Made by a program: the position numbers and the translations under genes. The notes below the pieces were generated by a model. The model saw only the letters and a program-made list of their open reading frames with translations, searched no databases and was not told the origin of the DNA. Below are positions 5,143 to 21,971 of a stretch of DNA of 22,300 bases, in pieces; positions within the stretch are counted from its first letter, which is position 1; every line of letters starts with the position of its first letter. Source of the DNA: a virus; the IMG/VR virus record IMGVR_UViG_3300001680_000252, positions 1 to 22,300 of that record; one strand, 5' to 3'.

Positions 5143-5757
5143 ATGGCACTAAGTAACTATTCAGAAATAAAGAGTGCGGTAGCCGACTGGCTAGACCGTG
5201 GTGACTTAACAGATAGGATACCAGACTTCATTAGACTTGCTGAGTTACGCATCTACAGGGAACTTCGTATTCCCCCTATGGAGAATGTGGTTGAATTAAC
5301 AACAACCAACAACATAGTTGCCCTGCCTGCTAACTTCTTAGAGATGAGAGCAGCAACAATCAAAGCAGCTACTGATGTTCCACTCCGTAGAGTAGGATAT
5401 AGGAACCAACCTAAAACATTAGAGAAAGGAACACCCACTACCTTTGCAAGACGAGGCGGTGATTTGATACTACACCCAACACCAGAAACAGAGACCACAG
5501 TAGAGTTATATTACTATGCTGACCAGGGCTCCATAACTGATGATACAGACGGTTCTAGTTGGTTCACTAGCAATGCACCTGACTTGTTATTATATGGTGC
5601 TCTATTAGAGGCTCATCCTTATTTAAAAGATGATGAACGTATTGTAGTATGGCAGACTGCTTTTAAAGAAGCCATGAGAACATTGCAGAGCATGGCGGAT
5701 GACTCGGAATATGCCGGTGCAGAGATTGTTGTGAGAACAACTTCAGGAGTTTACTAA
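5143..5757 (+). CDS. Head-tail adaptor protein (SU10-like phage adaptor)
   Basis: This 204-residue protein begins MALSNYSEIKSAVADWLDRG, then DRIPDFIRLAELRIYRELR, the typical opening of the short phage adaptor family (SU10 adaptor, analogous to P22 gp4 and T7 gp11), which forms a dodecameric ring under the portal. The centre contains the beta strands with ALPANFLEMRAATI and GGDLILHPTPE, followed by the 'YYADQG' segment. The C-terminal helices read DLLLYGALLEAHPYLKDDER, then a further helix, as in the family. The ATG follows the previous stop directly (TAGATG) and is served by AGAGGAAAA inside the end of the preceding gene, so the two are coupled. The length is normal for the family. Confidence 0.85.
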   Translation: MALSNYSEIKSAVADWLDRGDLTDRIPDFIRLAELRIYRELRIPPMENVVELTTTNNIVALPANFLEMRAATIKAATDVPLRRVGYRNQPKTLEKGTPTTFARRGGDLILHPTPETETTVELYYYADQGSITDDTDGSSWFTSNAPDLLLYGALLEAHPYLKDDERIVVWQTAFKEAMRTLQSMADDSEYAGAEIVVRTTSGVY

Positions 5758-7187
5758 TGCCAAAGGATACAGGTTTCTTTTCAGACACTATAGATAACGT
5801 AACGGCAACAACATCAGCTGAGGACCACGCTACTACAGCAACTACTCAGGCAGGTATTGCAACTACTCAGGCAGGTATTGCAACTACTAAGGCAGGTATT
5901 GCAACTACCCAAGCAGCGTTTGCAACTACCCAAGCAGGATTATCTTTAGCTAGTGCAATTAATGCCTCAGATTCTGCTAGTGATGCTGATGACGCACTAC
6001 AGACTTTACTTGATATTAGTTTAGTAGATTGGGCAGTAACAGGTGCTGAGGATATACACGCAGACCGTTATACGGATACTGTTTATACACACCCAGCTAC
6101 TCATTCTATAAGTGAAGTATCTGAACTACAAACTGCACTAGATAATAAAGTAGATGACACACAGATACTTACAGATGTTCCTTCAGGTGCTGTCTTTACT
6201 GATACTACTTACACTGCTGGTACTAATGTTTCTATTGATGCAGGTGTCATTAGTGCTACTGATACTAATACTGGAGATGTCAACGTACAATCTGATTGGA
6301 GTCAGGCAACTACTACAGAAGATGATTTCATTAAGAACAAGCCTACTATACCTACGGCTTTAGCAAACATTACAGATGCTACCTCGGGTGTAGCGGTTGA
6401 TGATGGTATTACTATTGACGACACAAAAGTACCTAAGGTATTCACACAAACAGATAACCCAACCGCAGGCACCTTTGAAGCAGGTGATTTATGGTGGGAC
6501 ACAGACGGATATACTTGCCGTATAGCAGTTCTGATAGGTTCATCATTAGCTTGGTTTAATATGGCAGATTTTAATGTAAGCACAGTATATATAGCCACAG
6601 ATACAGCTGATTTTACAATGGCTAATGGTGATATAACAACTAGAGAGTTTGATGGTAAGGGTTGGAGTGAAGTTGTAGTAGCATCAGCAGGCTCTGTTGA
6701 TATAAGAGGTATAGATACTCCTTCTTTTACACAGTATGAGTGTGACGCTAAAACCAATTCAGTATTTACAGCTGTTAAAAATGGCGCAGATGGTGGGCAT
6801 CCTATTTTAGCAGCTAAGTTAGTAGAAGTAGGAGAGGATGGTTTTCAGTTTGGAGATGTTGAGCCTGATGGTGATTATGATGGAAGTGATGGTTACTGGC
6901 TTGTAGGCGCACAGGGGTATAGGGCAGACCCTGCTAATGGTTCATATGCCTCTGCCTCCCCTGAGCTACAACCAAGAGCACACGCTGTTCTTGATTATGG
7001 TGAGGCATACTTTAATCAGAGTTCGTTAGATTATAATGCCCTTACAAACCTACCCACTATTCCTGATGTCAGTACATTTATAACAGCCAGCGATGTTACT
7101 ACTGAGGTATTAGTTGATGGTGTAAGCTCTACTGTGGATTTTAGCTTAGATTTGTTTACTGGTGTACTAACTATAACAACTACCTAG
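5757..7187 (+). CDS. Tail fibre protein with heptad repeats and fibre modules
   Basis: This 476-residue protein starts by overlapping the adaptor stop (TAATG), with AGGAG ten bases upstream. Residues 28-62 are five copies of the seven-residue unit ATTQAGI, suggesting an elongated helical or trimeric shaft just after the virion-attachment end. About residues 110-132 carry HPATHSISEVSELQTALDNK, and about 179-202 and 425-441 carry the recurrent shaft modules 'SDW...T...DDFIKNKPTIP' and 'DYNALTNLPTIP' known from many phage tail fibres. The region about 240-420 is beta-rich and Asp/Gly-rich. The protein would sit on the tail and contact the host surface. There is no Peptidase_S74 domain at its end. 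Exact fibre versus tip assignment cannot be settled here. Confidence 0.8.
   Translation: MPKDTGFFSDTIDNVTATTSAEDHATTATTQAGIATTQAGIATTKAGIATTQAAFATTQAGLSLASAINASDSASDADDALQTLLDISLVDWAVTGAEDIHADRYTDTVYTHPATHSISEVSELQTALDNKVDDTQILTDVPSGAVFTDTTYTAGTNVSIDAGVISATDTNTGDVNVQSDWSQATTTEDDFIKNKPTIPTALANITDATSGVAVDDGITIDDTKVPKVFTQTDNPTAGTFEAGDLWWDTDGYTCRIAVLIGSSLAWFNMADFNVSTVYIATDTADFTMANGDITTREFDGKGWSEVVVASAGSVDIRGIDTPSFTQYECDAKTNSVFTAVKNGADGGHPILAAKLVEVGEDGFQFGDVEPDGDYDGSDGYWLVGAQGYRADPANGSYASASPELQPRAHAVLDYGEAYFNQSSLDYNALTNLPTIPDVSTFITASDVTTEVLVDGVSSTVDFSLDLFTGVLTITTT
5838..5942 (+). repeat. Five tandem 21-bp coding repeats in the tail fibre gene
   Basis: Five in-frame 21-base units start at 5838, 5859, 5880, 5901 and 5922. 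The first two are identical, the third differs by one base, and the fourth and fifth share CCCAAG in place of TCAGG and diverge at the end. Each encodes ATTQAGI or a close variant. Such near-identical units can expand or contract by slippage or recombination and so change shaft length. Confidence 0.9.
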
Positions 7188-7196
7188 GAGGTACTT

Positions 7197-7775
7197 ATGT
7201 CAATTACATTTGACTCTAGTGTCTCTGAGATTAATTATAATGGTAGCCCTGTAACTGAGGTTATTTGGAATACTACTTCTGTTTGGTCCAGCTTTGAGGA
7301 AGAGGTTTTATTCTCAGGTTCACAGTCAATTTATGGGTTGGCTACTGATAACACCTCAGTAAAATATCGTATGGAGTTTCCCTTAGGGTCTCACGCTATT
7401 CCCCAACAAGGCTCTTCTTATCACTTCAGACTGAAGCAGGCACACGTGATGACTAAATTTAGCTTTGATTCGCTATCAGTTTTATTTAAGCTACAGGACG
7501 GTACATATACCTCTATGGTCAGTCCTGATGTAGGGGCTAATTTTAATAGTTTAGGTCTTAATATTGCCTATCAAGCAGTTGCACCTGCTGAAGTAGGAAA
7601 GCCCACCTTACAGACTTATAGTACATCTGTTTTTGAGGCTGGCCTTATCCTCCCTTCGGTTAGCAACCCTATTGTGACTGTGGTTGTGGTGGGAGATATA
7701 GGTGGGCAGAAGGATTCAGAACACACATCAACAACTATTTTCTTAGACATCGCAAACTATGAGGCAACTTGGTAA
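7197..7775 (+). CDS. Probable tail fibre-associated / receptor-contact protein, unknown
   Basis: This 192-residue protein has a strong TAGGAGG ribosome binding site that begins within the upstream fibre gene's stop codon. Its N-terminus contains the short beta repeat YNGSPVTEVIWNTTSVW (about residues 14-30), a pattern ('I.YNG..V..V..N...VW') I associate with small phage tail-tip proteins. The rest looks like an all-beta domain rich in Ser, Val and aromatic residues, with no signal peptide and no membrane segment. Its position directly after a tail fibre gene suggests a tip, adhesin or fibre chaperone. No specific family is recognised. Confidence 0.65.
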   Translation: MSITFDSSVSEINYNGSPVTEVIWNTTSVWSSFEEEVLFSGSQSIYGLATDNTSVKYRMEFPLGSHAIPQQGSSYHFRLKQAHVMTKFSFDSLSVLFKLQDGTYTSMVSPDVGANFNSLGLNIAYQAVAPAEVGKPTLQTYSTSVFEAGLILPSVSNPIVTVVVVGDIGGQKDSEHTSTTIFLDIANYEATW

Positions 7776-8317
7776 TGAACAATTCATACACAGAACATAA
7801 GGATTTATTTTACTCTCTCGTTCCTGAAGGTACACCTTATCTGCATCCAGTAGGACCTTCAGGTTGTAATAATACATTAACTATGTATCTATACTGTGCC
7901 ACGATGAAAGAGGAAACTCAGGATGCACAGGTTATCTTTAATAAGTTTATGGCTAGAGTACAGGAGATTATCCCTGATGTTATTAAGCTACCTTCGAATA
8001 TTAAGTGTCGTGGTAGACTTAAGGCTGTTGCGGATTTATTCTTTGCTGCGGATATGCTATTTGAAGAAGTGAGTGAGCCTGTAGATGGTGCTTTATACCT
8101 ATCTGAGATAAACATTAATCCTAGTATGACCCGCAAGGAACACTCTAAAGGTGCTATCTCGCAAGTCAACCCTGAAGAAGGTAGTCAATATATTAAACAT
8201 ATGGGCTTATATTCTACTGAGATAGGTGATGTTTTATTTAATAAGGACAATAACTTAGAGTTTGCAGGGCATACCCTCTATGAAATTAAACAAGACTTAA
8301 CAGTCCCACAAGGATAA
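7775..8317 (+). CDS. Uncharacterised 180-residue protein in the fibre-lysis interval
   Basis: The reading frame extends to a TTG at 7769, but the ATG at 7775 overlaps the preceding stop (TAATG), so I take that as the start, giving 180 residues. The protein is mixed alpha/beta and mildly acidic, with three cysteines (in SGCNN, YLYCAT and IKCRGR) and a central helix RGRLKAVADLFFAADMLFEE, followed by SEPVDGALYLSEININPSM. It has no signal peptide or obvious membrane span. I do not recognise a family, and it does not show the catalytic pattern of a common endolysin. It stands between fibre genes and small membrane proteins, so it could be a fibre assembly factor or lysis-related; neither is shown. 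Confidence 0.65.
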   Translation: MNNSYTEHKDLFYSLVPEGTPYLHPVGPSGCNNTLTMYLYCATMKEETQDAQVIFNKFMARVQEIIPDVIKLPSNIKCRGRLKAVADLFFAADMLFEEVSEPVDGALYLSEININPSMTRKEHSKGAISQVNPEEGSQYIKHMGLYSTEIGDVLFNKDNNLEFAGHTLYEIKQDLTVPQG

Positions 8318-8322
8318 TAGAT

Positions 8323-8550
8323 ATGGAAGCAATGGATTTTTTTATATTCCTACTGGGAACTATAACAGTAATGCTGGGGTATTACTTAACACAACTATCG
8401 GATGACCTCAAGGAACTGGAGAAAGGAATGTTTAATTGTCAAGCTAAGTTACCTATGGTGTACGTATTGAAGGAAGACTATAAACACGACATCGATGAGA
8501 TTAAGAAGATGATGGGTAAGATTTACGATAGGTTAGAGACTAATAAATAA
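8323..8550 (+). CDS. Small single-span membrane protein next to holin
   Basis: This 75-residue protein has one N-terminal hydrophobic segment (about residues 5-24: DFFIFLLGTITVMLGYYLTQ) followed by a charged helical tail ending DIDEIKKMMGKIYDRLE. I have seen this layout, a membrane anchor with a C-terminal 'KEDY..D..EIK.....IYDRL' helix, in small phage proteins next to holins, where the role is usually not defined; an inner-membrane spanin-like or holin-regulating role is conceivable. AAGGA precedes the ATG, five bases after the previous stop. The tail is short for an i-spanin, and no partner lipoprotein is visible. The start could also be the second ATG, three codons in. Confidence 0.7.
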   Translation: MEAMDFFIFLLGTITVMLGYYLTQLSDDLKELEKGMFNCQAKLPMVYVLKEDYKHDIDEIKKMMGKIYDRLETNK

Positions 8551-8627
8551 TGTGGTGGACAGCAGGAGCTTATGTCCCTATGTTGTATGACCCTTGGGTT
8601 CTAGCTTTAGGTTGGTCAATAATATGA
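8550..8627 (+). CDS. Possible 25-residue Trp-rich hydrophobic peptide
   Basis: An ATG at 8550 overlaps the stop of the preceding gene (TAATG), the coupling form used throughout this genome, and opens a 25-codon frame ending TGA at 8625-8627. The peptide begins MWWTAGAYVPMLYDPW and ends with a hydrophobic stretch LALGWSII; it has four Trp residues and only one charged side chain. Lying between a membrane-anchored protein and a holin-like gene, it could be a small membrane peptide of the lysis set. It has no clear ribosome binding site of its own and could be chance. Confidence 0.35.
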   Translation: MWWTAGAYVPMLYDPWVLALGWSII

Positions 8628-8644
8628 AACACCTGCTGGTTTTA

Positions 8645-8653
8645 TGGTATAAT
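8645..8653 (+). promoter_or_regulatory. Candidate extended -10 promoter before the holin-like gene
   Basis: TGGTATAAT at 8645-8653 is a perfect match to the bacterial extended -10 element (TGnTATAAT). No good -35 box is found at the expected distance, which extended -10 promoters can tolerate. Transcription would begin near 8660, leaving a very short leader. This would overlap the AGGAG (8659-8663) that serves the ATG at 8671, so the element may be fortuitous. Confidence 0.3.
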
Positions 8654-8670
8654 ACATAGGAGTATTTAAG

Positions 8671-9081
8671 ATGTTTGGATTACCTTTAGAAGTAATAACA
8701 ATGCTGATAAGCACAGCAGGAACAGCATACATCCGTATGTCAGCAGACAGTAAGGCAGACTTAGCGGCAGAGAGAATAGCAAGGGCAGGAGCAGTACAGT
8801 CAGCTAGAGAAATGCAGAGCACGAACGCTAGTTGGACCAGGCGATTCATAACTATGGCATTCATTGGCATGGCATACTTCATCCTACTAGCCCCACTACT
8901 AAACCTACCCACAGTAGTACCAGTCGAAGTAACCACAGGATTCAAGTTCCTATTCTTTGATTTCACAAACACAGTAACAGAGTATGTAACCTTAGAAGGA
9001 ATGGTCACACCAGACTATCTCCCTCACGCTATAATGGCAGTGGTTGGTTTCTACTTTGGTAATTCAACAGCAAAAAGGTAA
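8671..9081 (+). CDS. Holin-like membrane protein (probably three spans)
   Basis: This 136-residue protein has an N-terminal hydrophobic helix (about residues 3-20), then a positively charged cytoplasmic-type stretch with several Arg and Lys, then a long hydrophobic block around FITMAFIGMAYFILLAPLL (about 59-77), and a final span HAIMAVVGFYFGNSTAKR at the end. This arrangement fits the phage holins of the three-span type, which form membrane lesions that end the infection cycle. AGGAG lies about eight bases before the ATG. No endolysin gene is visible in the window, so the lysis enzyme must be elsewhere or unrecognised. The call rests on topology and size more than on signature residues. Confidence 0.65.
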   Translation: MFGLPLEVITMLISTAGTAYIRMSADSKADLAAERIARAGAVQSAREMQSTNASWTRRFITMAFIGMAYFILLAPLLNLPTVVPVEVTTGFKFLFFDFTNTVTEYVTLEGMVTPDYLPHAIMAVVGFYFGNSTAKR

Positions 9082-9954: not shown

Positions 9955-10677
9955 ATGTTTGGATTTGTAGCAGGTGCAGGAATACCCGTAGTTGCCTTAG
10001 AGCCTACATTAGTAAGCGGTACTGTGGCAAAGCAGATTGGTAGTTCTCATGAGGTAACTATAACAGGAATGAGTGGTGTACCTAAGACATTAATTATTGT
10101 TTTTAATCAGTTTTCAAATGGCTCTATTGTGGCAGACAACATGACAGGGTTTACTGTTGACGGTGAGACACCTACCCGTGATATTTTCGAAACTAATAAT
10201 TCATATGATGATGGAAACTACGCAGGAATATATAGGCACTTCATAGGTGGTAAGGATGAAGTTACAATAGACTTTGGTTCTAGCATCACCAGTCTAACAC
10301 TATCCCGTAGCTCATACACAGTGTTTGCAGTTGATGGTGACCCTGAGTTAAGTGCTGTTTATTCTTATGATAACACAGATGGTTCTACTTCTACCGAGAT
10401 TGTACGTAACGCAGGCGACCTTTTAGTTGCAGGGATAGCAACACATGACACCGTCATCGATGGTGGTATGAGTAACACCACAAAGCCTACAATATCTGAT
10501 ATGACATTGGTGGATGTAGAATCACCTGACCCAACTTGGTATAAGTCATTTTGTTACTTTACAGGATATAAGTATAGCAGTGCTGCTGAAACACTTACAC
10601 ACACTACTCGTAGTTACCATTACGATGGAAGGTACAAGTCTATAGTTTATGCCTTATATAAGAAGAGAGGTTCTTAA
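9955..10677 (+). CDS. Probable tail tip / receptor-binding beta-sandwich protein
   Basis: This 240-residue protein starts one base after the preceding stop and has no clear ribosome binding site, so it is probably translated by coupling. The sequence alternates short hydrophobic strands with Ser/Thr/Asp/Gly turns over its whole length (for example KTLIIVFNQFSNGS and VTIDFGSSITSLTLSRSSYTV), and ends with a basic strand KSIVYALYKKRGS. The final 'A..YALYK' pattern is shared by small phage proteins that follow tail fibres and look like jelly-roll or Ig-like tips. A short hydrophobic N-terminus (FGFVAGAGIPVVAL) resembles a signal or anchor but lacks basic residues before it. The receptor-binding role is inferred from neighbours. 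Confidence 0.6.
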   Translation: MFGFVAGAGIPVVALEPTLVSGTVAKQIGSSHEVTITGMSGVPKTLIIVFNQFSNGSIVADNMTGFTVDGETPTRDIFETNNSYDDGNYAGIYRHFIGGKDEVTIDFGSSITSLTLSRSSYTVFAVDGDPELSAVYSYDNTDGSTSTEIVRNAGDLLVAGIATHDTVIDGGMSNTTKPTISDMTLVDVESPDPTWYKSFCYFTGYKYSSAAETLTHTTRSYHYDGRYKSIVYALYKKRGS

Positions 10678-12257
10678 TGCCAGACCAAGTTAAAGTATTA
10701 AACCCTAACGGTATAAACAGAGACATTAGTCCTTACGAACTACCAGATGACAAGTGGTCTGAGGGTAACAATGTATCATTCACAAATGACAGAACAAGTA
10801 TGTCCGCAGGTTACACTGCGTTTGGTGCTGATTTGGCTGTAGAGCCTTATTGGTTAATGCCTTTTACTACACTTACTGATAGCTATTGGATATATGCTGG
10901 CCTCGATAACATATATAAGACTGATGGTGTCACAAATACAAACATAACTAGACAAAACAGCACTCCTGAAGATGTAGACTACACAACCACAGACGGTAAG
11001 TGGAATGGTGGTGTACTAGGTGGTGTGGCTATTTTAAACAACGGTATTGACGTACCACAAATGTTAGGCACTGGCTCTACTAGATGTGCAGACCTCGACT
11101 ACTGGCCTACTGGCATGAAGGCTTCTGTTATTCGCCCATTTAAGCAATTCTTAGTAGCCCTCGACACAACAGAAGGCTCTGACAGATACCCATATAGAAT
11201 ACACTGGTCACACCCTGCAGAACCAGGTACAGTACCCACTACTTGGAACGCAGCTCTAGCTGATAAGGACGCAGGCTATGTAGACCTGAGTCAGACTAAC
11301 GGTTGGGTAGTGGACTCGCTTCCTCTCAAGGACGCTAACATTATTTATAAAGAAGACTCCGTATGGGGCATGTCTTATGAAGGTGGTCAGTCTATATTTA
11401 GGTTCTATGAAATATTTAATGACGCAGGTGTGTTTGGTCAGAGATGTGCCAAGTCTTTTGATGAGAAGCATTTTGTAGTCACAACTAATGATGTCTATGT
11501 CCACAACGGACAGACAAAAGAAAGTGTAATCACCAACCAAATGCGTACTGAGTTATTTAACTCCATGCATGCTGACCACACAGGTAAGACCTTTGTAACT
11601 GCTGACTATAAGAACAATGAAATGTGGGTTTGTTTTGTTTCTGGTGGTAATTACCATACTACACCTCTTCCCAACAAAGCTTTCATATGGAATTGGAAAA
11701 ACAATACATGGACAACCAGAGACATTCCTAATGTAAACCATATTGGTTGGGGTGTTGTGGCATCAGCACAGGGAACAATTGACTGGTCTGATACAGGAAC
11801 ATGGGATTCGGATGAAACATCTTGGGATGACCGAGGATATAACCCAACAATGACTTCTCTAATTATGGCTGATACAGTCAATAAAAAACTATTTGAAGTT
11901 AAGGAGTCTGAGACTGAGTTTGATAATGAGTCTATTGTTGCTTATGTGCGTAAGGATTCAATGAACCTAGGCTACTCAGGAACTAAGTACCTCAAGAAAA
12001 TTATTCCTAAGTTTAGTTCTGGTTCTGGGGAGGTCATGTTTGCTGTCGGTTACTCTATGGTTCCTAATCCTAAAGATGGTATTGTATGGAAACCTCCTAT
12101 TAGTTTTGATGTTGGCGAACAGTCTGAGTTGCCTGTCAGGGTCACAGGAAACTATATAAGTATTGCGGTTTACACAACATCTAGTAACACTAGGTGGTCA
12201 CTAGACAACCTTGAATTACACTGGGCACCTAGTGGGAACAGAGGGTCTGGCACGTGA
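10677..12257 (+). CDS. Tail nozzle / stabilisation-type protein (P22 gp10 / T7 gp12-like role)
   Basis: This 526-residue protein begins with DQVKVLNPNGINRDISPYEL, then a segment containing WSEGNNVSF, the characteristic opening of the beta-propeller tail tube or stabilisation proteins of podoviruses ('p.Gi..D..p..lp...ws..rNV.f'). The body is Trp- and Tyr-rich with many beta strands and contains blocks such as AFIWNWKNNTWTTRDIPNVN, typical of propeller blades. The C-terminus has a beta-sandwich-like ending with WSLDNLELHW. In virions the protein forms the hexameric nozzle below the adaptor ring, closing the tail and binding fibres. The start overlaps the preceding stop (TAATG) and has AGAGAGG upstream. 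Assignment is by recognisable N-terminus, length and order. Confidence 0.75.
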   Translation: MPDQVKVLNPNGINRDISPYELPDDKWSEGNNVSFTNDRTSMSAGYTAFGADLAVEPYWLMPFTTLTDSYWIYAGLDNIYKTDGVTNTNITRQNSTPEDVDYTTTDGKWNGGVLGGVAILNNGIDVPQMLGTGSTRCADLDYWPTGMKASVIRPFKQFLVALDTTEGSDRYPYRIHWSHPAEPGTVPTTWNAALADKDAGYVDLSQTNGWVVDSLPLKDANIIYKEDSVWGMSYEGGQSIFRFYEIFNDAGVFGQRCAKSFDEKHFVVTTNDVYVHNGQTKESVITNQMRTELFNSMHADHTGKTFVTADYKNNEMWVCFVSGGNYHTTPLPNKAFIWNWKNNTWTTRDIPNVNHIGWGVVASAQGTIDWSDTGTWDSDETSWDDRGYNPTMTSLIMADTVNKKLFEVKESETEFDNESIVAYVRKDSMNLGYSGTKYLKKIIPKFSSGSGEVMFAVGYSMVPNPKDGIVWKPPISFDVGEQSELPVRVTGNYISIAVYTTSSNTRWSLDNLELHWAPSGNRGSGT

Positions 12258-12508
12258 GTATAAGGTACGTACCGGAAGCTCCTCCTGCTGACCCTAAAGA
12301 CTTACCTAGTTATTTGACAAGAGAACTTAACAGAATGTCAGAAGTAATTAATAACATTTCTGATGGCAACCTGAGTGTAATACATTCTGCTCCTCCTAAG
12401 CCGAGACAAGGCAATATAAGATATGCGGATGGAACTGACTGGGAGCCTGTTGTTGGTGGTGGTGAGGGCCTGTATATATACTTAAGCACCGGATGGTCTA
12501 AGCTTTGA
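12254..12508 (+). CDS. Small conserved phage protein, unknown function, GTG start
   Basis: This 84-residue protein starts with GTG in a four-base overlap with the nozzle gene stop (GTGA). Its opening SIRYVPEAPPADPKDLPSYL followed by TRELNRMSEV is a pattern I recognise from small podovirus proteins encoded after tail genes ('YVP.PPP.D...LP.YL.REL.RI'). The second half, with QGNIRYADGTDWEP and YIYLSTGWSKL, resembles the small 'G.i.YADG..W.PG.G.G.Y.Y...W..L' module seen in fibre-linked proteins. No catalytic motif is visible. It might be a minor tail component. The next gene again overlaps it by four bases. Confidence 0.75.
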   Translation: MSIRYVPEAPPADPKDLPSYLTRELNRMSEVINNISDGNLSVIHSAPPKPRQGNIRYADGTDWEPVVGGGEGLYIYLSTGWSKL

Positions 12509-12918
12509 TTACAGGCATAGTCTCTAAGGACATAGACAAATACTGGGACAGTAGTTTTGATGTTCTCATTAAGAGAGCACTTAGATATAGCGTAGCAGGT
12601 TTCAAAGTAGAAGACATAAAGCAAGCATGTAAAGAACAAGACATGCAGTTGTGGGTTAGCACATCAGACGGTGTTGTTAATGGCATCTGCATAACACAAA
12701 TATTAACATACCCTAGGAAGAAGAACTTATTAATACTTCTACTAGCAGGTAAAGATTTTAAGGAATGGCAAGATGAAGGTAATGAAAGAATGGTTGATTA
12801 TGCTAAGGCAAACAACTGCAGAGGTATTGAGTTTCACGGCAGAAAAGGCTGGGGAAATTTACTTAAAGACAATAATTATAAAGAACAACATGTTGTGTTC
12901 TATAAGGAGATAGTATAA
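12505..12918 (+). CDS. GNAT-like phage protein, TTG start
   Basis: The only plausible start is TTG at 12505, in a four-base overlap with the previous stop (TTGA); the first internal ATG is about 47 codons in and would remove the fold's first half. The 137-residue protein has the order of a small GNAT fold: an N-terminal helical part, strands at about 48-82 (QLWVSTSDGVVNGICITQIL, then LLILLLAG), a helix at about 91-103, and a final strand-helix-strand with GIEFHGRKGWGNLLKDNNY. The usual acetyl-CoA loop (R/Q-x-x-G-x-G/A) is not evident, so it may be a structural or inactive relative. In T7 a different GNAT-like protein, gp13, stands before the internal virion proteins; the position here is similar. 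Confidence 0.7.
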   Translation: MITGIVSKDIDKYWDSSFDVLIKRALRYSVAGFKVEDIKQACKEQDMQLWVSTSDGVVNGICITQILTYPRKKNLLILLLAGKDFKEWQDEGNERMVDYAKANNCRGIEFHGRKGWGNLLKDNNYKEQHVVFYKEIV

Positions 12919-13937
12919 TGGGTGGTGGCGGAAGCGAAACAACAAAGAACGAGCCGTGGACAGCAGCTCAACCTTACTTAAAACAAGGATATGCAGAAGC
13001 TAAGAATCTGTATGAGAACTTTACACCAGAGTATTATGGTGGTCAAACACAGGCGGACTTTACTGCTGACCAGCTGACATCACAGCAAGGCATTCGTGAC
13101 TTTGCAACGAAAGGTGCTCCTGAGATGATGAACTCGGCAATGGGTGCATATCAGTATGGCACAGGTAGTCAGGTTCTCGATGTGGCTAACAACCCATATG
13201 TACAAGGCATGGCACAGGCTGCTGCTAGAGACGCTTACTCAGGGTTAGGTCAACAGTTCTCTAACATCAGAGGTGGCTCTATTATGTCAGGTGGTTTTGG
13301 TGGTGGTAGACAAGGCATTGCAGAAGGTAATGCTCTTGGTGCTGCTAATCAAAATGCCATTGACGCAACAGCAAATATTTATGGTAACGCTTATGGACAA
13401 GGACTTACACATCAAGCTAATACATTAGGTATGACAGGTAGTATTATGGACTCAGGGTTTAAACCATATGATGCTCTTAATGCAGTTGGACAACAGCAGC
13501 AGGACAGAGAGCAATCACTTATTAATGACTCTATGGCACAGCATGAATTTTACCAGAACTTACCGGCTGATAAACTTAACCAGTATCTTTCTCAGCTTGG
13601 TCAAACACAGGGTCTATTGGGTAATGCAGGTACTTCAACTACTCCAGGACAAAGTGGTATGGGTCAGGCAGGTGAAGCAGCTCAGATTGTAGCCACCTTA
13701 GCCCCCTTCTTTACTGGTTCTGATGAGCGCCTTAAGAAGGACATTTCTAAAGTTGGTGAAACACCTTCAGGTATTAACCTCTACTCTTGGAAGTGGAAAG
13801 AAGGAGCTGAGAAGTTTGGTGCTGACATGAACCACACAGTTGGTGTAATTGCACAGGAAGTAATGAAAGTTATTCCTGAAGCAGTTAAGAAGTTTGATGA
13901 TGGTTACTATAGAGTTAACTACTCTAAGGTTGTATAA
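12918..13937 (+). CDS. Probable internal virion protein with C-terminal S74-type chaperone domain
   Basis: This 339-residue protein starts MGGGGSETTKNEPWTAAQPY, followed by YGGQTQADFTADQ (about 40-52), the recurrent opening of podovirus ejection-type proteins ('MGGGS..TT...EPW...QPYL.....yY.GQT'). The middle (about 80-260) is rich in Gly, Ala, Gln and Asn with helical repeats. Residues 268-339 form an intramolecular chaperone / Peptidase_S74-like domain: SDERLKKDI holds the Ser268-Lys273 pair corresponding to the self-cleavage dyad, followed by GVIAQEV (309-315), IPEAV and YRVNYSKVV. The protein stops right there, without the C-terminal helices that follow in typical S74 domains. AAGGAG precedes the ATG, which overlaps the former stop (TAATG). 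Internal-protein status is inferred from the N-terminus and gene order. Confidence 0.75.
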   Translation: MGGGGSETTKNEPWTAAQPYLKQGYAEAKNLYENFTPEYYGGQTQADFTADQLTSQQGIRDFATKGAPEMMNSAMGAYQYGTGSQVLDVANNPYVQGMAQAAARDAYSGLGQQFSNIRGGSIMSGGFGGGRQGIAEGNALGAANQNAIDATANIYGNAYGQGLTHQANTLGMTGSIMDSGFKPYDALNAVGQQQQDREQSLINDSMAQHEFYQNLPADKLNQYLSQLGQTQGLLGNAGTSTTPGQSGMGQAGEAAQIVATLAPFFTGSDERLKKDISKVGETPSGINLYSWKWKEGAEKFGADMNHTVGVIAQEVMKVIPEAVKKFDDGYYRVNYSKVV

Positions 13938-14383
13938 TGCAAAATATATTTAACCAAGCATTTGGACAACAACCCGGTGGATATGTGTATGGTGAAAACC
14001 TAGGTGACACATCACAGAATGCATACAACTTATGGGGTTCTACTGGACCAACAAATCCTTACATTGCTAGAGCTGCAACACAAGCACCCCTAATCCCGCA
14101 GAATGTGGCTGATGTATTACCAGGTGGTGCTAATTATTATGATTGGGATGCTGAACAGGCTGCCGCACGTGCAGCTGAAGCCGAGCGATATGCTATGCAT
14201 GGTGGTGGCGGTGGTGGTTACTATGGAGGTACTTACTCTGAGTTCAACACTGATGCCTTAGGAAACTGGGTTGACAGCTGGAGTGATGGTCTGGGCTATG
14301 GTGGTTATGGTGATGACTCTGCTGATGGTGGTGCTGGCTGGGGTAATAATGGTGATGGTGATGACGGCTTTGGTGGCTGGTAA
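13937..14383 (+). CDS. Gly/Asp-rich small virion protein, unknown
   Basis: This 148-residue protein is coupled to the preceding gene (TAATG). Residues 1-60 contain FGQQPGGYVYGENLGDTSQN and further Asn/Pro/Gln-rich sequence; residues about 75-88 are an Ala/Glu/Arg helix (EQAAARAAEAERYA). The remainder is low-complexity Gly with Tyr, Trp and Asp (a run of six Gly, then many GYG, DGG and GDGDD units, ending GFGGW). There is no recognisable enzyme motif or signal peptide. The place between probable internal proteins suggests a virion component or chaperone for them. The acidic Gly-rich tail may be disordered. Low-complexity makes distant homology hard to judge. Confidence 0.65.
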   Translation: MQNIFNQAFGQQPGGYVYGENLGDTSQNAYNLWGSTGPTNPYIARAATQAPLIPQNVADVLPGGANYYDWDAEQAAARAAEAERYAMHGGGGGGYYGGTYSEFNTDALGNWVDSWSDGLGYGGYGDDSADGGAGWGNNGDGDDGFGGW

Positions 14384-16048: not shown

Positions 16049-19000
16049 ATGACTAGAGAAGAAGAACTACAGAGAATAATGGCTGAGGTTGATGGCAGTG
16101 CTGGAGGCTCTGTATCAGCCGGTCAGGCGGCCATGCCTTCTTACTTGTCATCACAGGCTGAAGGTGCTAGTGCTGTAGGTGACATATTTAATGTAGACAC
16201 TCCAGGTGTGGACCAGTTTGGTGCGGAACAACAAGCCAAGGCTTCTCAATTCCAATCACAATATCCTGAAGGTTTGTTTAAGACAGACAATAAATTAGGG
16301 TGGTGGCAGGAGAAGGCCACATTGAATAGCATGAACCAAATTGTTCCTATGCTTGGTTATGCTGCAGGTGCTGTGTTACAGGCAGTACCAAACCCTGTTG
16401 CTAAGGTTCTCGGTAAAACTATTACAGGTGCTACATTTGCTTCACAGTATAATGCTAACCTCGCAGATACATTACAGGAACACAGAGACAGAGCAGGACG
16501 CGAACTGTCCCAACAAGAGAAAGTTTGGGCTGCTGTTATTGCAGGTGGTGTTGCTGCACTAGACAGAATTGCCCCTGGTAAAGTAGGTAAGGACGTTGCT
16601 AAGAGTATGGGTGGCATGGGTGCTGTTGACACTGCACGTAAGTCTATCATCAAGAGAATGAATGCTTCTAGGCAGTCACTTTTGAGTTCTATTGGTACTG
16701 GTGCTAAGTATGTTGGTGGTGTTACAGGTAGAGAGGCACTTACTGAATCAGCACAGAAAGCACTACAAATTGGCACATCCGTAGACCCAGGATATTTAAC
16801 TACACGTCCTGGTATGGAGTCAATAGTAGAAGAAGGTGTAATTGCCGGACCTACTTCAGGCTTAATGTCTACACCTCAGGGAATTGTAGAAGCCACCTCA
16901 CAAAACAGGGATATTGGTACCGCACGTAGAGATGCTAAGAGATGGAATACAACACGTTCATCTGAGGCAGGTCATAAGTACATGCAGACAGGTGTTAGTG
17001 AAGACATAGGCAAAATTGAAATTACAAAAGCAGAGGACATCCTAAGTAAGGGTGGTCGTGCTATTGATGCATTAAGTGGTGAAAGAATTGGCAGAGGTCT
17101 CAAGGCTTTTGCTGACATTGGTGCCTACAAACCTGCTTCTATTATTAAGGAAGCAAGAGACAGACAAACCACAGGAAAGAACTATGCTATTATGAATGAT
17201 GTGTTGCAGTCATTCATTGAGCCTGGTTCACAGAGTGGTGAAGTCAAAGTACGTGACTCATTCCACCAGAGAAAGGACCTGTATTCTGGTCAACTGCTAG
17301 GTGAGGTTACAGCTGTGCTTGACCAACTAAGTAAGCATCCTAAGTTTGGTTTAATGGGTAGAGAGTTGTCAGGTAGTGTCAATGACTTCATTCGTTTAAC
17401 ATTAACAAAACCTAATAGTCCTGAGACATTAGCTATAAGAGAGAAGCTAATTAAGGATGAAGGCTTTACTCAAAAAATGATGAGTCAAGTTACACATGCT
17501 GCTGCTTTAATGAGAGAGAAGCAAGACGAAGCGTTCACCTTAATGAAGGAAGCAGGTATTCCTGTTAAGTACCAAGAGAATTACATATACAATCCTGTCA
17601 GTGAGAAGGCAGTACGTGATAATAGGAAAGGGTTTATTGAATCTCTAGTTGCGGCAAGTGTGAAAGCTAACAAAGAGAATAGTAAAATTAAAATACTTAC
17701 TGATGAGCAGGCTGCTGAAATTGCTGATAGCATTAGCCACGGTAAAGACCCTTCTGTACTGACAAGTAAGTATTTAATAGACAAGAACAAGAAGAAAGGA
17801 ACTAAGAAGAAAGGCAAACAGGACTTTGAGAAGTCACGTAGTGATATATGGAAACACCTAGATGACGAGTTTAGAGAGAAAGACTTAGGTAAAGTAATGG
17901 AGCAGTACCTATTACGTGCTGCTACTCGTGTTGCTAGTGCTGAGACATTCGGTGCTAAGGGTGCTGACAGACTACAGAAGAACCTAGACACCTTAAAGAA
18001 AGAAGGTGACATCACTCAGTCAGAAGTTGGCAGAGTGTGGGACATGTATGACGCAGTACACAACACATATAAGAAGGACGTTAAAGAAGGTGAGCAGTTG
18101 TGGCGTGATGCGTCTAGGTTTGGTACTACTGTAGGTGCTATCACACACCTAGGCTTAGCAACACTGTCATCCTTGCCTGAATTAATATGGGTTGGTGAGC
18201 GTGCTGGCTTTGGTAACATGATGAAGACACTACCATCAGCATTCAACTACGCATTCAAAGGCGCTAAGCATGGTCTCGGTGGTAAGAAAGGGGAGCAGTC
18301 AGAAGGTGCTAAACAACTTGCACGCTTAGGATTCAACCTGAACCCTGAAGTGAATGACAGACTGGACCAGCTGTTCTCAGCAGACCGTAGTAAGATTCTT
18401 AGTGGTTATTTCCGTTCACCTTTTGGTGCGTTCCTAACACAGTGGACAAACTTCACACGTAACTGGGCAGCACAGACTGGCCTGAGCATGATGAATGAGC
18501 ACGCAAACAGTTGGAACACTATGCCACCTGCTAAGAAGAGTAAATTCTTACGTGAGTTAAAGGAGCAAGGCATAACAGCCAGTGACTTTGAGCAGATTAT
18601 AGAAGCATCGAGAGATTCCAGTGGTAAAATTAATATTAGTATTCTTAATGATGACTTCTTAGATAAGACAATCACCAAAGAGTATAAGACAATGGGCAAG
18701 AAAGGTACTCAAACAAGAGTGAGGGACATTATGATTCCTTGGGTTCACAAGATTGTCAGTGACGTAGTGGTACAACCGAACGCTACCAACAAACCCTTGT
18801 GGATGTCTAACCCTTCATGGTCTATGTTGGCACAACTTAAGACATTCCCTATTGTGTTTGGTAATACGGTAGTTAAAAGACTACTTAGAAAACTAAACCC
18901 TCGTAGTTGTAGTGCAGACTTTGGTCTTGCCTTATCAGTTATGGGTGCTATTGCTGGAGCATATGCTGTTGCCTTTATTGGTGAGACTATGAAGTCAGGA

Positions 19001-19294
19001 ATTAGAGGAAAGGACATGGAAGACTTTACGTTGATGTCCGGTGCACATAAGATTGGTCTTACTGCTGTTCCTGGTATGTTAGTAGGTGCTGGTAAGTATG
19101 GCAGTGGTGCAGAAAGTCTTGCTGGTGTACACGCTGGTGCTGTTGGTACTTTGTTTGAGGATGTTGTCTACCCTATCTTTGGCGAAGGTGAGATAGGTGA
19201 TGGAACTGGTAACTTAATTGATTGGATTTTAGAGAGTGGTCTACAAGGACTAGGTCCTGCAGGCATTGCTATTAAAGGGAGCTTTGAAGAATGA
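16049..19294 (+). CDS. Large internal virion protein with polyvalent-protein (LPD38-like) C-terminal region
   Basis: This 1081-residue protein is the largest gene in the window, the position and size of a podovirus ejected protein. The N-terminal 300 residues hold Gly/Ala hydrophobic helices (about 100-135 and 165-185) and a GREALTESAQKALQIGTSVD block followed by DPGYLTT, a pattern seen near membrane-active parts of phage internal proteins. Residues 340-680 are helical and charged. The C-terminal third has hydrophobic parts at about 692-716 and 957-978 and the block FGAFLTQWTNFTRNW ... WSMLAQLKTFPIVFGNTVVK, which resembles the LPD38 domain found at the end of very large phage polyvalent proteins. 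No lytic transglycosylase motif was found. The gene overlaps the next by ATGA. Domain naming is from memory and needs a profile search. Confidence 0.7.
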   Translation: MTREEELQRIMAEVDGSAGGSVSAGQAAMPSYLSSQAEGASAVGDIFNVDTPGVDQFGAEQQAKASQFQSQYPEGLFKTDNKLGWWQEKATLNSMNQIVPMLGYAAGAVLQAVPNPVAKVLGKTITGATFASQYNANLADTLQEHRDRAGRELSQQEKVWAAVIAGGVAALDRIAPGKVGKDVAKSMGGMGAVDTARKSIIKRMNASRQSLLSSIGTGAKYVGGVTGREALTESAQKALQIGTSVDPGYLTTRPGMESIVEEGVIAGPTSGLMSTPQGIVEATSQNRDIGTARRDAKRWNTTRSSEAGHKYMQTGVSEDIGKIEITKAEDILSKGGRAIDALSGERIGRGLKAFADIGAYKPASIIKEARDRQTTGKNYAIMNDVLQSFIEPGSQSGEVKVRDSFHQRKDLYSGQLLGEVTAVLDQLSKHPKFGLMGRELSGSVNDFIRLTLTKPNSPETLAIREKLIKDEGFTQKMMSQVTHAAALMREKQDEAFTLMKEAGIPVKYQENYIYNPVSEKAVRDNRKGFIESLVAASVKANKENSKIKILTDEQAAEIADSISHGKDPSVLTSKYLIDKNKKKGTKKKGKQDFEKSRSDIWKHLDDEFREKDLGKVMEQYLLRAATRVASAETFGAKGADRLQKNLDTLKKEGDITQSEVGRVWDMYDAVHNTYKKDVKEGEQLWRDASRFGTTVGAITHLGLATLSSLPELIWVGERAGFGNMMKTLPSAFNYAFKGAKHGLGGKKGEQSEGAKQLARLGFNLNPEVNDRLDQLFSADRSKILSGYFRSPFGAFLTQWTNFTRNWAAQTGLSMMNEHANSWNTMPPAKKSKFLRELKEQGITASDFEQIIEASRDSSGKINISILNDDFLDKTITKEYKTMGKKGTQTRVRDIMIPWVHKIVSDVVVQPNATNKPLWMSNPSWSMLAQLKTFPIVFGNTVVKRLLRKLNPRSCSADFGLALSVMGAIAGAYAVAFIGETMKSGIRGKDMEDFTLMSGAHKIGLTAVPGMLVGAGKYGSGAESLAGVHAGAVGTLFEDVVYPIFGEGEIGDGTGNLIDWILESGLQGLGPAGIAIKGSFEE

Positions 19295-20985: not shown

Positions 20986-21383
20986 AAATCAGTAACAACC
21001 TGCATCAGTTTCTTAAGAGGAACTAGATGTAGTTTACTTGCTCTGTTGTCACCACCCATTACAGTCCCCTTGCTTGCTTTGGGGACTAGTTGTTTAAGGA
21101 CTTCAGTAGGAAATACTAACGAGCACAGTAGCTTACCATCCTTGGTTAGGTTGTGTACCCAGAGGTCAGACTCAGTGGCTTCGAGGCCACTAGGTTTACC
21201 ATATGATTGTACCTCAATACATATGTTACCTGTCCCTGCCCACCTATCACGCTCAGTCTTTACCTCACATGTCTTGGCACCTGAGAACATGTCATCAATA
21301 TACTTCTCCCACTGCTGACCAAACTCCAAATCAATATCAAACTTCTTACGTCCTGCCCAGTCTTCTGCTTTATTTAAACTCAT
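20982..21383 (-). CDS. PD-(D/E)XK nuclease-like protein
   Basis: This 133-residue protein is read leftward and overlaps the endonuclease I gene by 14 bases, with AGGA upstream of its ATG. It contains an N-terminal helix with FGQQWEKYIDDM (21-32), then CEVKTERDRWAGTGNICIE (39-57), which has the E-x-K step and the 'D....TGN..IE' continuation typical of a small nuclease-like family in phages ('yEVK.D....TGN.fIE'), followed by KPSGLEATESDLWVH, where the family has 'SGi..T.AD.w'. The catalytic Asp of the full motif is not certain, so activity is open. It could be a resolvase-like or restriction-like enzyme of the replication module. Its stop codon interleaves with that of the convergent 564-residue gene. 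Confidence 0.65.
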   Translation of the reverse strand: MSLNKAEDWAGRKKFDIDLEFGQQWEKYIDDMFSGAKTCEVKTERDRWAGTGNICIEVQSYGKPSGLEATESDLWVHNLTKDGKLLCSLVFPTEVLKQLVPKASKGTVMGGDNRASKLHLVPLKKLMQVVTDF

Positions 21384-21789
21384 TTAATAATTCCTGTATT
21401 GTTTCTTCAGTGAAGTGACGAAAGTTATTCTTGTCTGCCCATTCTTCTTGTGTGTAGTAGGTACCATCCCTGCGCTTCTGTGCACCCGGCATCCTATTAC
21501 CTAACTTATACCATAAAAATACAAGCTCTGTTCCTGGTGGAAGTCTCTTCCTAATCCATACATACTTGCGTGCTTCACTTGACTCATTGAACCTTCCTTT
21601 TGCCTCAATTATTATATTGCCTACAACAAAGTCGGGATAATATTTGTGGTCAATTGAGTATTCAATAGGGTCAGGGTGAAACTCACAGTCTTTCATTAGA
21701 CCATCCTTGAGTTTAGTCTCCCACTTAGAATCTGCTGCTCTTTGGTTTGCCTTACCAAACCCTGCTCTTCTCCATGCTGGTACTCCCAT
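21370..21789 (-). CDS. T7 endonuclease I-like Holliday junction resolvase
   Basis: This 139-residue protein has the full active-site set of the T7 gp3 family: E24 in SKWETKL, D53 in HKYYPDF, E62 and K64 in NIIIEAKGRF, matching T7 E20, D55, E65 and K67 in spacing. The C-terminal part has ELVFLWYKLGNRMPGAQKRR and TYYTQEEWADKNNFRH, like the strand and helix after the active site in the family. The enzyme resolves branched DNA before packaging. The frame stays open to an ATG at 21828, but I choose the ATG at 21789: it overlaps the upstream stop (TAATG), has a strong GGAGGAG site, and the extra 13 residues would lie inside the zinc-ribbon gene. The order zinc ribbon, endonuclease I, PD-(D/E)XK protein is tightly coupled. 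Confidence 0.9.
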   Translation of the reverse strand: MGVPAWRRAGFGKANQRAADSKWETKLKDGLMKDCEFHPDPIEYSIDHKYYPDFVVGNIIIEAKGRFNESSEARKYVWIRKRLPPGTELVFLWYKLGNRMPGAQKRRDGTYYTQEEWADKNNFRHFTEETIQELLNEFK

Positions 21790-21971
21790 TACTTTAATTC
21801 TCCTCCTGGTTTGTGTCCCGTACCACAAGTTCTAAACTTGCTGTGGGACATTATCTTCTTAGTATCTTTAGATGTGCACTCTGGACAACGCCCACTTTTA
21901 TTTCTGTGTTCTATTGTGTTGTTCTTTGTGTACTCATTGTCACACTTGTTGCACTTGTAATCATATAGCAT
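21789..21971 (-). CDS. FmdB-like small zinc-ribbon protein
   Basis: This 60-residue protein begins MLYDYKCNKCDNEYTK, the N-terminal signature of FmdB-family zinc ribbons ('M..Y.Y.C..C...'), with C7 and C10 as the first pair and C29 and C32 (GRCPECTSK) as the second. These four Cys would bind one zinc ion. A further Cys (C49) lies in a basic, Gly-rich tail. The ATG at 21971 overlaps the preceding stop (TGATG); the GTG one codon earlier is less likely. The family is often annotated 'regulatory', without firm function. Here, coupled to endonuclease I, it may assist nucleic-acid binding; that is inference. Confidence 0.8.
   Translation of the reverse strand: MLYDYKCNKCDNEYTKNNTIEHRNKSGRCPECTSKDTKKIMSHSKFRTCGTGHKPGGELK

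Follow-up and report, generated by a model that had tools for sequence, protein, structure and literature searches.

S74 or ICA domains are known to serve fibres and MyRF as chaperones that build trimers and release themselves. In MyRF, as described in PMC8326128, residues S587 and K592 are needed for cleavage, the cut falls before the serine, and the strand that bears this site passes through the neighbouring subunit. Cleavage occurs only in trimers, and the main trimer force is helix alpha4, around which helix alpha1 forms a collar (PMC8326128). The known ICA domains are trimeric according to PMC8326128 and PMC3742443.

Among ejection proteins, gp20–24 of SU10 are described as present in the virion and gone after genome release (PMC9509320), and one of them, gp22, is an experimentally supported ejection protein without an S74 domain. 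T7 gp14 and P22 gp7, compared with the gene studied here by position only, occupy a similar operon place, ahead of larger ejection genes (PMC8954989), but in the available text of PMC8954989 S74 does not occur for them. That some such proteins bear an S74 annotation is already known from GenBank, where S74 or pfam13884 is noted on RHph_N2 EVC05_012, phiGT1_17, PAE2_13 and H6/1 gp17, the last being labelled a putative ejection protein. A discussion of S74 on ejection proteins was not found in the open-licence literature, among the matches listed: in the portions available of PMC3909814, PMC9782041, PMC10194240 and PMC11058221 the terms S74 or endosialidase chaperone concern fibres, spikes or tail lysins, and in what is available of the main text of the phiGT1 paper (PMC10386132) neither S74 nor chaperone occurs. 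What appears to be new here is the definition of a class of short S74 domains, the evidence from their presence and absence, and a set of fused proteins.

The window gene and its C-terminal S74 domain

The window, i.e., the whole stretch of 22,300 nucleotides that was analysed (IMG/VR record IMGVR_UViG_3300001680_000252, positions 1 to 22,300), carries on its plus strand a gene (12918..13937) for a small protein of 339 residues that matches phrog_4287, "DNA ejection protein", over residues 4–338 (E 2e-36) and matches nothing in NCBIfam. The protein ends in TGSDERLKKDISKVGETPSGINLYSWKWKEGAEKFGADMNHTVGVIAQEVMKVIPEAVKKFDDGYYRVNYSKVV, followed by a stop codon that is overlapped by the next ORF, starting at 13937. 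Pfam Peptidase_S74 (PF13884) is matched by residues 268–324 (DNA 13719–13889) with 47.9 bits against a gathering score of 22 (E 1.7e-12) and over all 58 profile positions (1–58 of 58), so the match is far above chance and complete by Pfam's definition. The short S74 domain as a whole comprises residues 268–339 (13719..13934, plus strand). It opens with SDERLK (13719..13736), whose Ser268 (TCT, 13719–13721) and Lys273 (AAG, 13734–13736) correspond to MyRF S587 and K592, and closes with VNYSKVV and the stop (13914..13937), where helix alpha4 would start; a single residue follows the end of the aligned domain, and the C-terminal coiled-coil helix is therefore absent. A first-pass annotation of this DNA had read the Ser268/Lys273 pair in SDERLKKDI, then GVIAQEV and VNYSKVV before the stop, and had taken the C-terminal helices to be missing, and on both points the ORF and the full Pfam match agree with it. 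It had overlooked that alpha1, the helix between the lysine and the first strand, is absent as well, its place being taken by the turn GETPSG (13755..13772), as the class alignment and the consecutive strands of the structural model indicate.

Directly before Ser268 lies a hydrophobic end segment, AAQIVATLAPFFTG (13677..13718), and within the 25 residues preceding Ser268 the best 15-residue Kyte–Doolittle mean is 1.16. By analogy with MyRF, the predicted cut site would be between G267 and S268, and the predicted mature product would be the ejection-protein part, residues 1–267 (12918..13718), an extent also suggested by the phrog_4287 match, by a helical model and by an orthologue of 264 residues (see below).

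The full-length AlphaFold2 model (pLDDT 70) contains helices and no strand of three or more residues in its N-terminal part, with a weak stretch at 234–263 and block means of 77–96 from residue 271 onward; the domain modelled alone reached a pLDDT of 89.6. Strands 273–281 and 287–293 are consecutive across a short turn, and a four-residue helical stub stands at the chain end. For the full-length model Foldseek found nothing at or below E 0.001, which leaves the N-terminal helices without an assigned fold and is no evidence of a new one; for the domain model it placed 7dc3 first (E 0.03). VIA-align of the domain model likewise placed the MyRF ICA domain first (2.1 Å, 58 residues, 33% identity), with a low Z of 4.4 and with a match that spans model residues 21–78 only and leaves the Ser/Lys strand outside; other ICA structures scored 2.3–2.4, level with unrelated kinases. 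In the comparison of profiles with structures, 7dc3 (2.7e-5) and 6f45 (1e-6) were found, and so was the designed protein 3pg0 (1e-4). Core sequence and fold are common to the window domain and the solved ICA domains: with endosialidase NF (3GW6), the phage neck appendage gp12 (3GUD) and MyRF (7DC3) it shares Ser-Asp-x-Arg-x-Lys, an aromatic pair and the GVIAQ strand. Unlike these three, it has no alpha1, no alpha4 coiled coil and no long tentacle, and it is borne by a helical ejection protein in place of a beta-helical stalk.

In all likelihood the carrier is an ejection protein, to judge from its family match, its relatives and its gene order, all of them read from sequence. With the S74 domain removed, residues 1–267 match phrog_4287 (E 7e-18) and no other PHROG. 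The same family is matched by SU10 gp22 (3.5e-109, profile 1–321 of 392, i.e., without the S74 end), by the N-terminal part of gp20 of Salmonella phage 7-11 (4.6e-102), whose own C-terminus is a short S74, and more weakly by LUZ24 gp53 (2e-10), which is mainly a phrog_7477 protein. Against the profile of the window protein's core family, LUZ24 gp53, which has no S74, scored 67 bits and SU10 gp22 just 11.5 bits (best domain 2.0), the link of the latter to the window protein running through phrog_4287 and not through the core profile. All three relatives are alike in their homologous core, but SU10 gp22 and LUZ24 gp53 lack the S74 domain of the window protein and finish with a hydrophobic tail rich in glycine.

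LUZ24 also shares the gene order, with homologues of gp56, gp55, gp54, gp53 and gp50 following one another in the window. The homologue of gp56 (10677..12257, plus strand; E 1e-88, and phrog_3287 at E 6e-117) would have a SU10-type nozzle role. For the homologue of gp54 (12505..12918, plus strand; blastp 4e-9), which matched no Pfam family, an acetyltransferase role is suggested from position only, an acetyltransferase being annotated at the equivalent place in RHph_N2 and phiGT1. The homologue of gp50 is a large virion protein (16049..19294, plus strand; phrog_6958 at E 5e-28, blastp 4e-11), and upstream the portal, capsid and adaptor proteins match the same Pfam families as those of SU10. 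The phage is short-tailed, and its S74-bearing protein is probably injected into the host. A fibre-type N-terminal part was also considered and rejected, phrog_4287 being the sole PHROG match and the model being helical; the ejection-like N-terminus noticed in the first-pass annotation thus holds with the S74 domain cut off, and the gene order speaks for it as well.

The short S74 form and its carriers

A total of 257 non-identical S74 proteins was gathered by several queries, two of the scans using patterns that contained the serine and the lysine. Tail length behind the domain was bimodal, with 15 residues or fewer in 83 proteins, 16–19 in none and 20 or more in 174, and the short form was defined by a chain end within 15 residues of the domain, by which L041, with a tail of 20, counts as long. 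De-replication at 80% identity in the domain left 55 short and 112 long forms; four of the long ones are fused proteins (see below), which were taken out and counted apart, leaving 108 other long forms. Since tail length sets the class, the missing alpha4 is true by definition, and the missing alpha1 is an independent result: its columns are filled in 106 of the 108 other long forms, in none of the 55 short forms and in none of the four fused proteins.

The residues around the putative cut are kept in both classes. Ser, Asp and Lys(+5) are conserved in 55/55 short forms and Arg(+3) in 47/55, while among the 108 other long forms Ser and Lys are found in all and Asp in 107. As a control for the bias of the Ser/Lys queries, short forms found without such a pattern were considered, with the result of 46/46 (in a 56-member set that includes L041), and a scan without S74 in the query gave Ser, Asp and Lys in 60/60 distinct S74 domains (from the best 80 of 468 relatives). 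A Kyte–Doolittle mean above 1 before the serine was seen in 45/55 short forms versus 13/106 long forms. Judged by these comparisons, the short S74 is a recurring class, not a damaged copy, and the loss of alpha1 and alpha4 with retention of the cutting residues is a coherent change; the conserved short form that was to be sought among homologues is thus present in 55 non-redundant proteins, all without alpha1.

The carriers differ from those of ordinary S74 domains. When the S74 domain is left out, just four PHROGs are matched at E 0.001 by the N-termini of the 55 short forms, namely the virion structural phrog_6121 (n = 29), the DNA ejection families phrog_4287 (n = 13) and phrog_598 (n = 3), and phrog_7477 of unknown function (n = 4); at least six of the 55 match none, and no fibre family is among these matches. 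A random 50 of the 108 long forms (a sample that included the fused L226 and L252) matched 123 families, of which 25 were listed, the commonest of these being two tail fibre families (14 and 9), two virion structural families (9 and 8) and a tail spike family (8); phrog_6121 occurred in three members and phrog_4287 in two. RHph_N2 EVC05_012 and phiGT1_17 (both phrog_6121), PAE2_13 (phrog_598) and H6/1 gp17 have the same C-terminal short S74 as the window protein, but the N-terminal parts in RHph_N2, phiGT1 and PAE2 come from other PHROGs. In relatives that are not fused (see below), the annotation of the next gene varies: in phiGT1, NYA-2014a and Octadecabacter DB2 it is given as a peptidoglycan hydrolase or noted as muramidase-like, and in RHph_N2, PAE2 and H6/1 it is called hypothetical or an ejection protein. 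No Pfam domain was found in phiGT1_18.

Two further kinds of S74 protein were met with. In L256 (4176–5297) an S74 of the long type, an exception among head proteins, is borne by a virion structural protein of phrog_8003; it has an alpha1-like sequence and a helical-looking tail of 26 residues. On the virus-classed contigs L021 (5245–6372) and L022 (5158–6381), short proteins with a start that looks signal-peptide-like by eye carry an S74-like domain in which the GVIAQ motif is altered to TSTIAQQ.

Presence, absence and fusion among relatives

The closest comparison is with L001/L002 from IMG/VR, which encode an orthologue of the window protein that is 93% identical, has 264 residues and ends three residues before the serine site. 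Their DNA is 86% identical to the window as far as 13676, and similarity resumes at 13937 with 91% identity; S74 was not matched in the 27.3 kb of L002, a record without a stated completeness. The next ORF of the window (13937–14383), which matches no Pfam or PHROG family by hmmscan, is itself 91% identical to L002 in DNA over its first 210 bases and then diverges into a Gly/Asp-rich tail, so that this gene, like the S74 gene, is mosaic at its C-terminus. A second, independent case is L263, with S74, versus L266/L268, without it: the DNA is 84–87% identical on either side of the gap, and the break is at the serine, L266/L268 ending in GGFGNVFKF/GGFGNLFRF where L263 reads GGFGALF-SDRRLK.

A further scan took as its query just the N-terminal part of another carrier family; it found at least 468 relatives, and the best 80 of the 468 were followed. 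Among these are 77 complete genes, 68 with S74 and nine without (six distinct), and all 68 S74 tails have 12 residues or fewer. From the start of a GGLFxLG motif, the stop lies 14–25 residues away in the nine relatives without S74, and the serine 11–20 residues away in 36 S74 proteins with the motif (best 80 of 468); some of the S74-less proteins extend about 12 residues past the usual serine distance. On a quick tree of 74 rows, in which two end branches are long, the S74 label changes at least seven times, not fewer than in shuffles. The median dN/dS is 0.24 for S74 and 0.22 for the core (120/281 pairs usable), rough values in that dS is near saturation and the pairs are not independent. Homologues with the full helices, which the first-pass annotation had named as counter-evidence together with a frameshift or stop difference here, did not turn up, none of the 68 S74-bearing relatives among the best 80 of 468 being long-tailed. 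A frameshifted or truncated long form was therefore rejected as unlikely, a long tail being seen in 0/68 of these relatives and the next ORF having no family match.

In seven IMG/VR loci (L226, L229, L232, L245, L250, L251 and L252, the last three near-copies, i.e., six distinct proteins) a single ORF of 1412–1740 residues joins an N-terminal unit to a short S74 and to a long part behind it. Five of the seven carry two S74 domains, and all 12 domains start with SD-x-x-x-K. L226 and L229 match phrog_4287 from the first residues over nearly the whole profile, and L245 and L252 match phrog_6121 from residue 165. Behind the last S74, L245 has an SLT transglycosylase domain and L252 a domain of glycosyl hydrolase 108 (GH108), and no Pfam hydrolase domain was found behind S74 in L226, L229 or L232. 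In GenBank, the complete, circular MW202675 (L360), labelled Myoviridae sp., has a protein of 1185 residues (5176–8733, "internal virion protein D") with S74 at 277–341 and SLT at 601–694, whose N-terminal part matches phrog_4287 weakly (9e-4); with it, a Pfam hydrolase stands behind S74 in 3/6 fused proteins tested. Residues 695–881 of L226 are homologous to the protein encoded next after S74 in L201, L199, L253 and L255, a homology to the next gene of unfused relatives that covers about 165 residues and was seen for L226 only. A scan with the whole of L226 matched just L226 itself and one partial relative. MYRF resembles these proteins in having its ICA domain mid-protein with other domains behind it (PMC3742443), but the fused phage proteins lack alpha1 (4/4) and MYRF requires trimerisation.

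Readings of the short domain

The reading favoured here, to which about an even chance is given, is that the short S74 would cap the C-terminus and remove itself by a cut before Ser268, without a coiled-coil trimer. It is favoured because the catalytic residues are invariant, presence and absence differ near the cut position, the preceding end is hydrophobic, and internal copies exist; moreover, with the parts that hold a trimer removed and the cutting residues kept, the domain probably serves as an end-piece that is temporary and can be removed. The gene product would accordingly be made as an ejection protein (1–267) with such an end-piece (268–339). The Ser268 strand would fold back into the cutter of its own chain or, alternatively, would be fed into that of a neighbour when the ejection proteins gather in the head, and the bond before Ser268 would then be cut, leaving a mature protein with a hydrophobic C-terminal segment, as in the relatives without the domain. 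Before the cut, the domain might cap this segment and delay its insertion or aggregation, and within the long fusions it would detach the ejection unit from the downstream part. A more specific version is put forward only tentatively, and with less confidence: that the short S74 cuts itself off alone, the loss of alpha1 turning the swapped strand into an intrachain hairpin (by comparison with MyRF, a serine strand without alpha1 would fold back on its own chain), and that phages thereby mature their ejection proteins and, where one or two copies lie inside the chain, divide polyproteins composed of an ejection unit, S74 and a hydrolase or other unit after their synthesis.

The main counter-argument comes from the analogy itself, in that the MyRF S74 cuts only as a trimer, held mainly by the alpha4 that is missing here. 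The conservation of Ser, Asp and Lys may serve folding, Asp being equally invariant. Ten of the 55 short forms have no hydrophobic segment, which counts against a cap, as do the S74-less relatives that run some 12 residues past the serine distance, the long-type S74 on the virion protein of L256, the hydrolase in only 3/6 fused proteins and the next-gene homology in L226 only.

These points lead to the strongest rival, a somewhat unlikely one, in which the domain never cuts but is retained as a compact adaptor that docks the ejection protein to the portal, the DNA or the next ejection protein, with Ser, Asp and Lys holding the fold. In its favour, both trimer helices are gone and MyRF cleavage needs trimers, the Asp outside the dyad is as invariant as the dyad, and the domain is under purifying selection. 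Yet the domain is absent from close orthologues and from 9/77 genes of another family (best 80 of 468), the difference between presence and absence falls at or near the serine position, and Lys(+5) is kept in 55/55 versus 47/55 for Arg(+3). The first-pass annotation had proposed a different use for the shortened form: a recurring short form on an ejection-type protein, and not on an ordinary fibre, was indeed found, but a permanent retained or threading fold is the less supported part of that proposal, because close orthologues end there without the domain and Ser and Lys are invariant.

A trimeric folding clamp, in which the ejection protein's own helices replace alpha4 and are helped to fold, with or without cleavage, is improbable: long helices are predicted in the N-terminal part and the known ICA domains are trimeric (PMC8326128, PMC3742443), but alpha1, the trimer collar of MyRF, is missing in 55/55 short forms, and a partial post-ejection structure of T7 gp14, a protein likened to this one by operon position only, is described as hexameric (PMC8954989). 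Still less probable, and disfavoured by the selection data, is a relic or passenger, i.e., a fibre S74 gained by recombination and now decaying; its patchy presence, with seven changes on the tree that are not clustered beyond shuffles, would suit this, but dN/dS is 0.24 against 0.22 for the core, Ser, Asp and Lys are invariant, the same shortened architecture occurs on several carrier families, and 68 relatives (best 80 of 468) include no long-tailed form. An ordinary tail fibre or spike, the other refutation that had been foreseen, can practically be dismissed, for although such genes go by "tail fibre domain-containing" or "tail spike protein/chaperone" in some records, the N-terminus is phrog_4287, the model is helical, and no fibre PHROG occurs among the 55 short-form N-termini whereas the long-form sample is commonly fibre or spike.

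If the self-removing cap is true, the short form separates cutting from trimerisation, the poorly understood ejection proteins gain a maturation step with a precise cut site, and from the fused forms one would expect polyproteins that process themselves within the phage head.

Elsewhere in the window, the product of 5757–7187 has an N-terminus of repeats rich in Thr and Ala (ATTQAGIATT) and matches a tail fibre family over a short stretch, and 21370–21828 on the minus strand gives a weak phage endonuclease I match (PF05367, 27.8 bits against a cut-off of 29.1). At about 8600–8800 of L002, a protein of 482 residues, the counterpart of a 428-residue protein of the window, contains a long Gly-Thr repeat that is absent in the window.
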